A stretch of DNA of 64,000 nt from Nocardia sp. BSTN01 (GTDB lineage Bacteria; Actinomycetota; Actinomycetes; Mycobacteriales; Mycobacteriaceae), in the NCBI RefSeq assembly GCF_015354405.1, contig NZ_JADKYP010000030.1:19377-83376 (forward strand), read 5' to 3'. The position numbers and the translations under genes were made by a program. Positions 4,590 through 51,244 of the stretch are shown here, piece by piece. Within the stretch, counting starts at the first letter, position 1. Every line of letters begins with the position of its first letter. Under the pieces are notes generated by a model. The model saw only the letters and a program-made list of their open reading frames with translations. It ran no database searches and was not told where the DNA came from.

Positions 4590-5405
4590 ATGAGTGAGGC
4601 TGTCGCCTCCCCGGTGAGCGGGGAGTCTGCCGGGGTGGAGTCGCTGCCACTGACCGGCGAACGGACCGTGCCGGGTATCGCGGAGGAGAACTACTGGTTC
4701 CGCCGACACGAGATCGTCTACGCGCGCCTGCTCGAACGCTGCGGCGGGGCAACGGTTCTGGAGGCGGGTTCCGGCGAGGGCTACGGCGCGAACATGATCG
4801 CCGACGTCGCCACCCGGGTGATCGGGCTGGACTACGACACCAGCGCGGTGGAACACGTTCGTGCGGCCTACCCGCGGGTCGAGATGATCCAGGGCAATCT
4901 CGCCGACCTGCCACTCGACGACGCCTCCGTCGATGTGGTGGTGAACTTCCAGGTCATCGAACATCTCTGGGATCAGGGTCAATTCCTGCGTGAATGCCTG
5001 CGGGTGCTGCGCCCCGGCGGGCAGTTGCTGATCAGCACGCCGAACCGGATCACCTTCTCGCCCGGTCGCGATACGCCGTTGAACCCCTTCCACACTCGCG
5101 AGCTGAACGCCGCCGAACTCGCGGAACTGCTGGAGCAGGCCGGATTCCGCGTCGACGTGATGGCCGGTGTCCATCACGGCCCGGCGCTGGTGGCTCTCGA
5201 CGAACAGTGGGGCGGCTCGTTCATCGACGCGCAGATCGAACGGGCGCTGGCCGGTGAGCCCTGGCCGGCCGAACTGACCGCGGCGGTGGCCGGGGTGCGC
5301 ACCGACGATTTCGAGCTGCGCCCGGCGCCCGGTTCGGCCGTCCCGGCGTGGGATCCGGAGATCGATGCCAGCCTCGATCTGGTCGCCATCGCGGTGAAGC
5401 CGTGA
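4590..5405 (+). CDS. class I SAM-dependent methyltransferase (Rv3030-like, methylglucose lipopolysaccharide)
   Basis: A 271-residue Rossmann methyltransferase: LTGERTVPG followed by ENYWFRRHEIVYARL, SAM motif I VLEAGSGEGYG (about 56-66), acidic loop GLDYDTS, and NFQVIEHLWDQ. The same blocks occur in M. tuberculosis Rv3030, which lies in the same place next to fixA and upstream of Rv3031-Rv3032; that operon serves synthesis of the 6-O-methylglucose lipopolysaccharide that binds fatty acyl chains. I use ATG 4590 because the length (271) matches the family; GTG 4527 or ATG 4530 upstream in frame would add about 20 residues. Its stop overlaps the GTG of the next gene by four bases. Confidence 0.88.
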   Translation: MSEAVASPVSGESAGVESLPLTGERTVPGIAEENYWFRRHEIVYARLLERCGGATVLEAGSGEGYGANMIADVATRVIGLDYDTSAVEHVRAAYPRVEMIQGNLADLPLDDASVDVVVNFQVIEHLWDQGQFLRECLRVLRPGGQLLISTPNRITFSPGRDTPLNPFHTRELNAAELAELLEQAGFRVDVMAGVHHGPALVALDEQWGGSFIDAQIERALAGEPWPAELTAAVAGVRTDDFELRPAPGSAVPAWDPEIDASLDLVAIAVKP

Positions 5406-47856: not shown

Positions 47857-47881
47857 ACCTGTCCAGTGGGGACCTGTCCAG
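47857..47881 (+). promoter_or_regulatory. direct repeats upstream of the XRE gene
   Basis: ACCTGTCCAG occurs twice, at 47857-47866 and 47872-47881, with a 15-base period, 36-60 bases before the XRE start. The TGTCCAG part also occurs in the promoters at 39.2 and 46.9 kb. Possible regulator-binding sites in the divergent promoter. Confidence 0.35.
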
Positions 47882-47916
47882 AAAACCGGGACACAATCGA
47901 TAGGGGAGCTAACAAC

Positions 47917-48795
47917 ATGGGGTCAGGGAGCACACTCGCGCAACGAGCATTGGGGCGCGAACTGCGGCGGCTGCGAAACAACAAGGGAATGGGGCAATCA
48001 CAGGCCGCGCGCATCGCGGAAACGTCGCATCAGACGATCGGCCGCATCGAAGAAGGGCAGACGACGAGAATCACGAGCCTCCAGGTGAACGCACTGTGCG
48101 ACAGCTACGGGGCGACCGATGAGGAGCGGCGCATCTGCCTGGATCTGGTGAAGGAGATCCGCGCGTCGCGGGAGGGGAAGGTGACCGCCAGCTGGTGGAG
48201 GGCGTATGCGGACGCGCAAGCGACTGGGTTCAACCACTATCTCGCACTGGAAGATGCGGCTAATCACCTGACGGTGTGGAAGACAGCCATCATGCCCGGA
48301 CTGCTCCAGACGTCCTCGTACCGGCGAACGATGGCCTGGACCGAATATCCGGACATGTCCACGGATCATCTGGAGCGACAGATCGAGTGGCAGACACATC
48401 GCCAAGAGAGGTTGGCAGATCCCGACCTGCAGATGACGGTGTTCCTGTATGAGACCGTCCTGTATGAACAGGTCGGTGGCGCAGCTGTATTCGATGAACA
48501 GATGCGCCACCTGTTGACTGTGGCTACGTATCCGAACGTGTGTGTCCGCGTGGTTCGGTTCACCGCGTCGAGTCATTTGGGGGCGTACGTCGGTTCGTTC
48601 ATGCTGCTGGAATTTCCGGATCTCGTGTCTGGACTGCCGCAGCCGCCCATCGTCTATGTCGAGGGCTGGACAGGGGATCTGTACCTGGAGCGCGAGGCGG
48701 AGTTGCAGCGTTATAACCAGGCACTTCGCGAGATCGATCGTGTAGCGTTGACTGAAGCCGATTCGGTAGCACTGATCAAGGAGCGCATGCGGTGA
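47917..48795 (+). CDS. XRE-family regulator with DUF5753 domain
   Basis: A 292-residue protein. Residues 10-65 form an XRE helix-turn-helix (LGRELRRLRNNKGMGQSQAARIAETSHQTIGRIEEG); residues about 100-285 form the DUF5753 domain (ALEDAANHLTVWKTAIMPGLLQTSSYRRTM, YETVLYEQVGG). This type is highly multiplied in actinomycetes and almost always precedes DUF397 genes, where the pair acts in development or as toxin-antitoxin-like modules (Scr1/Scr2 in Streptomyces). ATG 47917 follows AGGGGAGC. Its stop overlaps the first DUF397 gene (GTGA). Confidence 0.9.
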   Translation: MGSGSTLAQRALGRELRRLRNNKGMGQSQAARIAETSHQTIGRIEEGQTTRITSLQVNALCDSYGATDEERRICLDLVKEIRASREGKVTASWWRAYADAQATGFNHYLALEDAANHLTVWKTAIMPGLLQTSSYRRTMAWTEYPDMSTDHLERQIEWQTHRQERLADPDLQMTVFLYETVLYEQVGGAAVFDEQMRHLLTVATYPNVCVRVVRFTASSHLGAYVGSFMLLEFPDLVSGLPQPPIVYVEGWTGDLYLEREAELQRYNQALREIDRVALTEADSVALIKERMR

Positions 48796-48995
48796 GCAAC
48801 GAGCTGTCCGGGGCGAAGTGGTTCAAGTCGAGCTTCTCGGGTTCGAGCAAAGAATGTGTCGAGGTCGCGTTCGTCGACGATGGTGTCGGCGTTCGTGATT
48901 CGAAGAACCCCACCGGTCCCGCCCTGATCTTCACCCCCTCGGAATGGTCCACGTTCACCGCGAGCGTAGAGCAGGGTGACTTCGACCAGGCATAG
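48792..48995 (+). CDS. DUF397 protein, copy 1
   Basis: A 67-residue DUF397 protein: LSGAKWFKSSFSGSSKECVEVAF, VGVRDSKNPTGPALIFTPSEW, SFTA-type end (TFTASVEQGDFDQA). GTG start overlaps the stop of the XRE gene, so the pair is coupled. DUF397 proteins bind their XRE partner. Confidence 0.9.
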   Translation: MSNELSGAKWFKSSFSGSSKECVEVAFVDDGVGVRDSKNPTGPALIFTPSEWSTFTASVEQGDFDQA

Positions 48996-49004
48996 GAGCG
49001 TGCC

Positions 49005-49208
49005 ATGAGCAACGATCTGTCCACGGCGAAGTGGTTCAAATCAAGCCGCTCGGGCTCAACCAAGGAGTGCGTCGAGGTGGCGTTTCTCAACGACGGTGTA
49101 GGCGTTCGTGATTCCAAGAACCCGACCGGTCCCGCCCTGATCTTCACTCCTTCCGAATGGTGCGCGTTCACCGCAGGCCTGGAACACGGTCGGTTCGACC
49201 ACGCCTGA
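49005..49208 (+). CDS. DUF397 protein, copy 2
   Basis: A 67-residue paralogue of copy 1, nine bases downstream: LSTAKWFKSSRSGSTKECVEVAF, GVRDSKNPTGPALIFTPSEWCAFTAGLEHGRFDHA. The closeness in sequence shows a recent tandem duplication. A perfect 15-base-pair hairpin follows. Confidence 0.9.
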   Translation: MSNDLSTAKWFKSSRSGSTKECVEVAFLNDGVGVRDSKNPTGPALIFTPSEWCAFTAGLEHGRFDHA

Positions 49209-49226
49209 GGCATCCTGTAACAGCCG

Positions 49227-49259
49227 AGAACCCCCGAAGGTGGAACCTTCGGGGGTTCT
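49227..49259 (+). terminator. strong intrinsic terminator after DUF397 copy 2
   Basis: AGAACCCCCGAAGGT (49227-49241), loop GGA, perfect complement 49245-49259. A related hairpin with the same CCGAAG/CTTCGG core follows copy 3. Confidence 0.8.
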
Positions 49260-49382
49260 GCCGTCCGCAGCCTCCTTGACAGAGGTATGACGCCGACCGG
49301 TGCCCCGGCCGTCGATCTCATGCGACACTAATTGTTCAGCCTCCCAGCTTGTTTCGGCTTCACCGACCAAGGAGCGTCTGTC

Positions 49383-49586
49383 ATGAGCAAGGACCTGTCC
49401 GGGGCGAAGTGGTTCAAGTCGAACTTCTCAGGCGCGAGCAAAGACTGCGTCGAGGTGGCGTTCCTCGGTGATGGTGTGGGCGTTCGTGATTCGAAGAACC
49501 CAACCGGCCCGGCTTTGGTCTTTACCCCCGCCGAATGGTCCTCCTTCACCGCCAGCGTCCAGCGCGGCCGGTTCGATCGGGCGTAG
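49383..49586 (+). CDS. DUF397 protein, copy 3
   Basis: A 67-residue paralogue: LSGAKWFKSNFSGASKDCVEVAF, GVRDSKNPTGPALVFTPAEWSSFTASVQRGRFDRA. It is separated from copy 2 by a terminator and its own 120-base leader, so gene plus terminator appear to have been duplicated together. It must have its own promoter or rely on read-through. Confidence 0.9.
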   Translation: MSKDLSGAKWFKSNFSGASKDCVEVAFLGDGVGVRDSKNPTGPALVFTPAEWSSFTASVQRGRFDRA

Positions 49587-49727: not shown

Positions 49728-49801
49728 TGAACTTTCCGTGCAAACCTCGCCCGATTTTGCGGAAACCCGCAAATTTCCCGGAGGTTTGCACGGAAAGTTC
49801 A
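49728..49801. repeat. 74-bp palindromic element, copy 1
   Basis: Outer arms of 21 bases (49728-49748, beginning TGAACTTTCCGTGCAAACC, and 49781-49801) are perfectly complementary. The 32-base loop contains a second inverted repeat, TTTGCGG (49756-49762) and CCGCAAA (49767-49773). A copy of exactly the same length lies at 51114-51187. The two flank the alpha/beta-hydrolase gene in the same orientation. Confidence 0.8.
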
Positions 49802-49843
49802 GCCCCCTCTGACACAACGCAATTCGCGCCGTGTCGCGCGTTC

Positions 49844-51040
49844 TCAGCGGAGATGCCGATCGGCGAGGGCCCGAGCGGCAGCATCGGGCACGTAGGCCGC
49901 ACACGCGGTGATGAGATCCCGGATCCCGTGAACGGTTTCGGTGGTGAGCGCGGCATGGCGCACCACGTCGAGTTCGTTGGCGATGGTGAGGAGTGCGAAG
50001 TCCGCGAGATCGGTGCCGTCCACGGCGACCACCTCGCCGGTGAAGCGGTCGGTGACCGGAAGTGGGGTGGCGCCGAGGTGGGGATAGGTCTCGGCGCGGT
50101 CGCACGCGCCGTAGCGGTAGACCAGCGCTTCCGCGTCGTGACCGATTGCCGCGCGCAGGCGTGATCGCCGGTCGGGTGACAGCAGCGAGTGGGGGAAGCC
50201 GTCCGTGCTGTAGGTGGCGTGGGTGAGCGCGGCCAGCCGAACCCGGTGACCTCCACCGAGGTCCGCGACCAGCTGCCGCACCCGCTCGAGGTGATCGAGG
50301 AGATCCCCACCGGGATGCTCCACCCGGGCCGCGCCGAGTTCGCGCAGCAGCGCCAGCGCCGGCCACGGTGTGGTGAGATCCGCGATCGTCCGCGCCAACG
50401 CCTCCGGCTGATCGCGGGCGACCAGATGCCCGGCGCCGGGAATTCGGATCACCGTGGCGTGCGGAGCCAGCCGGAGCAGCCCGTCCGCCTCGACGTCGGT
50501 GAGCGGTGTGGCCCGACCGGCACGGATCAGAAGGATGGGGATATCCAGTTGCGCGGTGATCTGGCGCAGTCCCGGGACGTGGGCCAAGACATCGTCGATG
50601 AAGTCCGGGTAGACATTCGACAGACCGCCGGCATCGAGAAAACGCCGCACCCGGCCCGCATCGAGATTGGGCACCACATCCACCAGAACCAGCCCCGTGA
50701 CCTTCGCTCGGGTGCGCGGATCACCCAGTGCCGCAACGGCGGCGAGCCCACCCAGTGAGGCGCCGACGAGCACGCATCCGGGTTCCGCATCGACTATCGC
50801 GGCAATATCGCCGCCGCACTCGTCCAGCCTCCTGAGTGCCCCACCGCTGTCGCCGTGGCCGCGCTGGTCGAAAGCGACACACCGCATTCCGTCCTCGACC
50901 AGTCGCTCCACGACGGGAGCCCACACCTGCCGCCGCTCACCCCCGGCATGCAGCAAGACCACCGTCGGCCCATCGCCGACCTCCTCCCCGTGCAGATCCA
51001 CGCCGGAACGCGCAATATGCCGCGGCCGCACCACATCCAT
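49844..51040 (-). CDS. alpha/beta hydrolase fused to DUF6817 domain
   Basis: A 398-residue protein of two parts. Residues 1-225 are an alpha/beta hydrolase: TVVLLHAGGERRQVW, VAFDQRGHGDSGG, nucleophile elbow LVGASLGGLAAV with Ser about 94, Asp in the ILLIRAGRATPLTDVE strand and the His in PGAGHLVARDQP. Residues 228-398 match the DUF6817 family (EHPGGDLLDHLERVRQLVADL, ALTHATYSTDGFPHSLL, YRYGACDR, DLADFALLTIANELD), which resembles HD-like metal-binding proteins. The fusion suggests a two-step reaction, for example ester cleavage then a second hydrolysis. The gene is bracketed by two palindromic elements. Substrate unknown. Confidence 0.8.
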   Translation of the reverse strand: MDVVRPRHIARSGVDLHGEEVGDGPTVVLLHAGGERRQVWAPVVERLVEDGMRCVAFDQRGHGDSGGALRRLDECGGDIAAIVDAEPGCVLVGASLGGLAAVAALGDPRTRAKVTGLVLVDVVPNLDAGRVRRFLDAGGLSNVYPDFIDDVLAHVPGLRQITAQLDIPILLIRAGRATPLTDVEADGLLRLAPHATVIRIPGAGHLVARDQPEALARTIADLTTPWPALALLRELGAARVEHPGGDLLDHLERVRQLVADLGGGHRVRLAALTHATYSTDGFPHSLLSPDRRSRLRAAIGHDAEALVYRYGACDRAETYPHLGATPLPVTDRFTGEVVAVDGTDLADFALLTIANELDVVRHAALTTETVHGIRDLITACAAYVPDAAARALADRHLR

Positions 51041-51113
51041 GATTTACCCCCGTGCGATTGTCAGGCCGTTGACGATAGTGCCACGCTGTGATCCCCGCCG
51101 CCCCAGCGTCCGG

Positions 51114-51187
51114 CTGAACTTTTCGTGCAAACCTCGCCGGCGATGACGGAAATCGCCACATTTCGCCGCGGTTTGCACGATTAGTTC
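51114..51187. repeat. 74-bp palindromic element, copy 2
   Basis: Arms 51114-51132 (TGAACTTTTCGTGCAAACC) and 51169-51187 pair at 17 of 19 positions. The inner inverted repeat is GGCGAT (51138-51143) and ATCGCC (51151-51156), different in sequence from copy 1 but in the equivalent place. It lies between the start of the hydrolase gene and the start of the aldo/keto reductase gene. Confidence 0.8.
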
Positions 51188-51244
51188 ACCCCCGCCCATA
51201 GGCGCCGGCACGTTTACCGGCCACATCGGGGGTAGAACACGGAC

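Follow-up and report, generated by a model that had tools for sequence, protein, structure and literature searches.

Dispersed 74-base palindromic elements in the Nocardia nova group and insertions at their hairpin tips

Among the closest described counterparts of the element reported here are the REP/REPIN sequences of the GTAG and CGTC super-families, which form long-lived populations (excerpt of PMC8049555) and whose hairpins take IS insertions at the symmetry axis, as for ISPsy8 (excerpt of PMC1525189). The Nocardia element resembles them as a many-copy extragenic palindrome with species-group variants. It is, however, a single hairpin of 74-76 bp, whereas REP units measure 20-40 bp and are often dimeric; its consensus (profile of 117 copies) has no GTAG/CGTC tag, and no Y1 transposase match was obtained in the element-rich Nocardia genomes defined below. 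The hairpins also occur in Nocardia, whereas the word Actinobacteria is missing from PMC3733652; of four actinobacterial names looked for in PMC6006769, none was present. ERIC, NEMIS and RUP are named MITE types (excerpt of PMC3733652), short non-coding elements with terminal inverted repeats that lie beside genes. The Nocardia element shares with them terminal inverted repeats, a lack of coding capacity and a high copy number, but differs in its near-fixed length, its partly near-random core and its conserved tip, and neither an autonomous partner nor a duplicated target site of the element turned up at the loci and arms examined. Literature searches on Nocardia with "miniature inverted-repeat" found nothing, and those with "repetitive extragenic palindromic" returned no Nocardia repeat family by title. 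None of the literature matches listed, from a scope without most subscription papers, describes this family.

Hairpin elements in the window and in the host genome

The window (the whole 64,000-nucleotide stretch of DNA that was analysed) carries two such elements on either side of one gene:

49728..49801, plus strand: copy 1, a 74-bp hairpin element with 21-bp perfect arms (81.3 bits with covariance model R1)
49762..49767, plus strand: copy 1, hexamer at the hairpin tip (element positions 35-40, from the position profile), the place of insertions in other copies
49844..51040, minus strand: alpha/beta-hydrolase-DUF6817 gene between the copies (context only, outside the element)
51115..51188, plus strand: copy 2, a 74-bp hairpin element (86.9 bits with R1)
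51149..51154, plus strand: copy 2, hexamer at the hairpin tip (element positions 35-40, from the position profile)

The initial annotation had described two 74-bp palindromes closely bracketing this gene. Both are real and of that length, and copy 1 lies exactly where it had been placed, while copy 2 occupies 51115-51188 rather than 51114-51187. The hydrolase-DUF6817 gene does lie between them, at the 74 bases from copy 2 that had been given and at 42 rather than 43 bases from copy 1. The two copies have the same orientation around the gene, start 1387 bases apart and are 76% alike over an 85-base alignment; the arms of copy 2 are imperfectly complementary (TTT versus TTA). Allowing up to 3 mismatches, a 21-base arm query has 3 matches in the window against 0.00 expected: copy 1 is hit in each of its arms and copy 2 in one. 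Folded as single-stranded DNA (plus strand), copy 1 reaches -31.7 kcal/mol (z -9.4) and copy 2 -24.0 kcal/mol (z -6.1), with 0 of 200 shuffles as good in either case. A T-run was found 3' of neither copy, and an Rfam search of the window at the gathering score gave 0 matches.

Copy 1 sits between convergent genes, a DUF397 gene (end 49586) and the hydrolase-DUF6817 gene, and copy 2 between the divergent hydrolase-DUF6817 gene and an aldo/keto reductase gene (start 51245). At 47866-49586, an HTH_31/DUF5753 regulator gene precedes three small genes that resemble one another (48792, 49005, 49332), the last of which, the only one of the three run against Pfam, is the DUF397 gene.

The 7.79-Mb host assembly contains 57 occurrences of the core GTGCAAACCNC; of 40 stretches around such places outside the window, most, not all, belong to hairpin elements. 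Model R1, built from 20 copies, returns 58 rows in the host at E<=1, corresponding by hand count to 30 places, most of them matched on both strands: 26 are full-length (at least 57.8 bits), one is interrupted by an IS and 3 are partial or decayed. According to our own crude gene caller, 20 of 24 host loci lie between genes, 3 overlap a weak ORF and 1 is unassigned; the neighbouring genes are convergent at 7 of the 24 and divergent at 4 (copy 2 and 3 others). Where both neighbours could be placed, 11 of 20 loci have a gene 3' end less than 100 bases away (hand count), and between co-directional genes the AAAA strand is the gene strand in 4 of 9 cases (compared by hand). Most host copies are not arranged as a pair around one gene. 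Two places, C88:107724 and 109255, are local copies with similar cores and flanks. The lone arms that were read look like truncated copies, and those inspected, a non-exhaustive sample without the small contigs, yielded no longer element bounded by such ends.

Distribution, inheritance and constraint

Across the genus, R1 matches 30 of 151 Nocardia genomes (E<=0.01), and 12 genomes of the N. nova group are element-rich, with at least 10 rows each among the matches listed (both strands counted). The many copies, mostly between genes, that R1 finds in the host and in other Nocardia genomes support the REP/MITE-like family of the initial annotation, which had proposed a covariance-model search. 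In a named scan, whose loci were picked by exact 10-base arm cores and could measure ~64-84 bases, the matches listed come from N. nova, N. kruczakiae, N. cerradoensis, N. aobensis, N. africana, N. elegans, N. veterana and N. mikamii, and from seven non-Nocardia contigs that by eye seem unrelated. The matches listed include 133 distinct elements, of which 117 measure exactly 74 bp and 122 fall into 33 flank-similarity clusters; 3 of these clusters (6 elements) lie on non-Nocardia contigs.

The Y1 transposase family PF01797 matches 28 of the 150 genus genomes searched (one of the 151 lies outside that sample), and the 28 include none of the 12 element-rich genomes: G000 and G040 have a listed count of 0, and the other ten are among those unlisted. 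Mobilisation by a RAYT/IS200 system was rejected on this ground. Copy 1 has no match among plasmids and phages at E 1e-5. Seven stretches were obtained from viral contigs, and the two that were read (L386, L392) look unrelated. A Coriobacteriaceae MAG has a pair of hairpins with CGTGCAAACC arms, 136 bases apart (L172, 4534-4616 and 4670-4753), probably by chance.

Several species share elements at orthologous loci, apart from some losses. At the window locus, N. aobensis, N. kruczakiae, N. cerradoensis, N. africana and N. nova all have copy 1, and in these five the hydrolase-DUF6817 gene lies between both copies; in G076, copy 1 has been lost together with ~186 bases. Copy 2 is present at the orthologous locus in N. 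aobensis, N. kruczakiae, N. cerradoensis and G076. Its orthologue in N. nova NBRC 15556 has ~70 bases inserted at about positions 40-42, and in N. africana it is cut short, the sequence diverging at the end of the right arm. In L245 (N. nova, G084), the ~70 bases at the tip of copy 2 resemble part of an aldehyde dehydrogenase gene, judged by eye and not by a search, and may be filler DNA at a broken hairpin. In the C99 region, a second region chosen by place and holding three weaker copies, several of the relatives examined are missing an element or carry one that is halved or decayed. G076 has half an element, broken at about the tip. A clean empty site of the element was found neither at the window locus nor in the C99 region.

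The consensus has arms TGAAC-N3-TCGTGCAAACCTC, ends TGAAC...GTTCA and the tip GAAAAC. In a profile of 117 copies, tip positions 35-38 carry 1.76-1.86 bits and position 40 carries 1.70, values inflated by the orientation of the copies by their tip. End positions 2-4 reach 1.93, 1.80 and 2.00 bits, positions 71 and 73 reach 1.79 and 1.70, and positions 1, 5, 70, 72 and 74 stand at 1.2-1.3. Positions 44, 45, 48 and 49 are near-random (0.05-0.29 bits), with the other inner positions intermediate; positions 10-19 and their mirror are conserved through the selection of loci and cannot hold indels. In 180 ortholog pairs, which are not independent of one another, the element shows 27 indels beside 1430 substitutions over 13264 aligned bases, and the 74-base flanks 362 indels beside 5927 substitutions over 24760 bases, or 0.019 versus 0.061 indels per substitution. 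Without the 20 arm-selected positions the substitution rate of the element becomes ~0.148 by our own arithmetic, and it remains below that of the flanks.

Covariation of the inner stems, a central claim of the initial annotation, is at best weak. Across 29 ortholog clusters, the inner part holds 11 pair-keeping double changes, where shuffles give 8.0 +- 1.9 (20 of 200 with at least as many) and slid registers 4-12. In favour of covariation, one-sided pair-breaking changes number 119 against 129.7, fewer than in all 200 shuffles. In the outer arm of the same clusters, the corresponding values are 10 against 6.6 +- 1.7 (13 of 200 as high) and 49 against 56.0, again below every one of the shuffles. 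Over the 117 copies, the inner 32 bases fold only slightly better than shuffles (mean z -0.81, with z below -2 in 13 copies; -2.7 for window copy 1 and -1.3 for copy 2), and arm covariation in a 20-copy host alignment is 0.062, under the shuffle mean of 0.075. Selection on a folded or palindromic form, which had been suggested from the inner stems, finds no clear support in their covariation but is supported by the near-fixed length, by the conserved ends and tip, and by moderate arm covariation in one sister population described below.

Insertions at the hairpin tip

Insertions with GGGCTGTTGC ends begin 38-40 bases into the element at five loci (L204 and L205, which are orthologous, L206, L207 and L208), under a search pattern that allowed ~27-49 bases into the element. 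At L204 (1531-1679) and L205, in two genomes, an element of ~150 bases with GGGCTGTTGCAAAAT ends is inserted in the tip, in L204 with GCTTCC on both sides. A search for the IS family with GGGCTGTTGC ends gave one weak match, to a Streptomyces plasmid (E 0.2), and a comparison with phages gave none. The IS itself was not seen in the host assembly, in which 58 small contigs stand as N.

Insertions in the hairpin elements may explain some of the breaks in that assembly. Contig C110 carries 40 element bases followed by an IS end and contig C35 carries 39 element bases, and the two map to one orthologous element with a 5-base overlap at the tip. Nine host contig ends without IS sequence, that of C35 included, lie in elements, against 0.18 of 412 expected (uniform breaks, 45 copies assumed; probability ~4e-13). 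An origin of these breaks as a purely physical effect of the hairpin was dropped, and IS insertion preferred, because seven of the nine bare ends stop at element base 39 and the other two at base 33, and because C110 and C35 share one element with a 5-base overlap. We infer that IS insertion lies behind the other bare contig ends too. Three further pairs of breaks were found, of which one overlaps by 4 bases, whereas the other two miss 2 bases and show no duplication, which speaks against IS insertion; the only explanation we offer for these two is that the duplicated hexamer was lost in assembly.

Readings of the family and related hairpins

The elements form a dispersed, largely inherited and length-constrained family of palindromes with strong hairpin potential and IS-like insertions at the tip. 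With moderate confidence, we regard them as REP/ERIC-like extragenic palindromes that are kept by constraint on the folded or palindromic DNA and whose tip is an IS target, the function being the part that we infer. The palindromes would have spread, through a putative mobiliser, in an ancestor of the N. nova group, and the copies, now largely inherited at fixed loci, would be kept because the palindrome is recognised as DNA, either double-stranded with a fixed spacing or as an extruded hairpin. The recogniser would most likely be a DNA-binding or nucleoid protein, and the tip-inserting IS would parasitise the site rather than mobilise it. If the constraint is real, Nocardia has its own equivalent of the REP elements, one that lacks the tyrosine transposase and comes in dozens of natural variants across species. 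The question of selfish versus useful bacterial palindromic repeats could then be tested in a new lineage, and IS biology would gain a natural set of hairpin-tip targets.

It is possible, if doubtful, that the elements are instead an inert MITE family with short terminal inverted repeats, mobilised by a DDE transposase that was lost or went unseen and now drifting, the conservation being exaggerated by sampling. Dispersed, short, palindromic and non-coding elements would fit such a family, as would the absence, halving and decay in the C99 region and the two local copies on C88, and the named loci were indeed selected via exact arms. Yet the tip and ends, which played no part in that selection, stand at 1.7-2.0 bits beside near-random inner positions, and indels are suppressed relative to the flanks; nor was there a clean empty site at the two loci mentioned or, in the non-exhaustive sample of lone arms, a longer element with the same ends. 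Two observations weaken the reading of constrained extragenic palindromes somewhat in favour of an inert MITE: 3 of the 33 clusters are non-Nocardia, and two paired breaks lack a duplication.

Transcription terminators or mRNA-stabilising hairpins that act as RNA are an unlikely explanation. The hairpins are strong, 7 of 24 loci are convergent and 11 of 20 lie close to a gene 3' end, but, unlike an intrinsic terminator, neither window copy is followed by a T-run, copy 2 and three other loci of the 24 lie between divergent genes, the 4 of 9 orientations show no strand bias, and a terminator needs neither a fixed sequence nor a fixed length. The paired regulatory RNAs of the initial annotation are not supported, given this absence of strand bias and of any Rfam match in the window. 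That annotation had also considered the ends of a mobile cassette, and the equal orientation of both copies around one gene would suit such ends or an attC-like recombination site. Integron attC sites are palindromic too, with a divergent core between conserved boxes, and their R boxes read GTTRRRY and RYYYAAC; the Nocardia consensus, with TGAAC and a 3' end GTTCA, does not fit them, and the elements are mostly dispersed singly rather than paired. Since the copies stand at orthologous places in several species, with the same gene between them, ends of a cassette around the hydrolase gene are not supported, and we consider paired ends of either kind highly improbable.

Other Nocardia genomes hold hairpins of 74-76 bp that follow a similar plan but have arms of their own. 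The single-contig genome G085, the sister population mentioned above, has 39 places (hand count) and 33 full-length copies with different arm variants and the tip CGGGAATTCCCG. Its covariation score of 0.133 is reached by 4 of 500 shuffles, with slid registers at most 0.070, although relatedness among the copies within one genome can carry them past the shuffles and inflate the score; the number of pair types is unexceptional (58 of 500 shuffles). Taking the origin to be at coordinate 0, 16 of the 39 places point one way relative to the replication strand and 23 the other (by hand). Two gaps are shorter than 3 kb against 0.53 expected (p 0.10), and the copies lean towards coordinate 0, at a median distance of 1.37 Mb against 2.09 expected if uniform. 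The weak R1 matches L077-L087, from other Nocardia species, include hairpins of ~75-76 bp with other arms, and L088-L094 look like chance. The generic pattern TCGTGCAN{42,48}TGCACGA finds 20 places in G034 (control 1), 10 in G109 (0), 7 in G138 (2) and 6 in G112 (0), and no genome outside Nocardia exceeds 3 among 301 genomes of the family from 31 genera. The 13 G034 copies that were read mostly have TGGCA-type ends, a TCGTGCA box, which the search pattern itself partly imposes on the sister families, and a core of 58-59 bases.

We suggest, tentatively and as an improbable extension, that Nocardia harbours a class of fixed-length 74-76 bp DNA hairpins whose arm "code" is swapped per lineage while the spacing, the TCGTGCA box and a short A/T-rich tip are kept. 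Read as DNA by a putative host protein, such hairpins might form a chromosome-organising or genome-marking system distinct from REP/RAYT.

Some further repeats came to light in the same genomes. L279-L290 (G034, a 5.2-Mb Nocardia genome) represent a separate family of ~75-base hairpins with TGGCATTTTCGTGCA-type ends. L081 (G018) has a hairpin of similar length with arms GGCCTGAGCGGACAAAACC and without the TCGTGCA box, perhaps a further arm variant. In L352, a stretch of ~100 bases at 4772-4876 has 81-88% matches elsewhere in 8 of the 11 Nocardia genomes searched and could be another repeat or an RNA gene.
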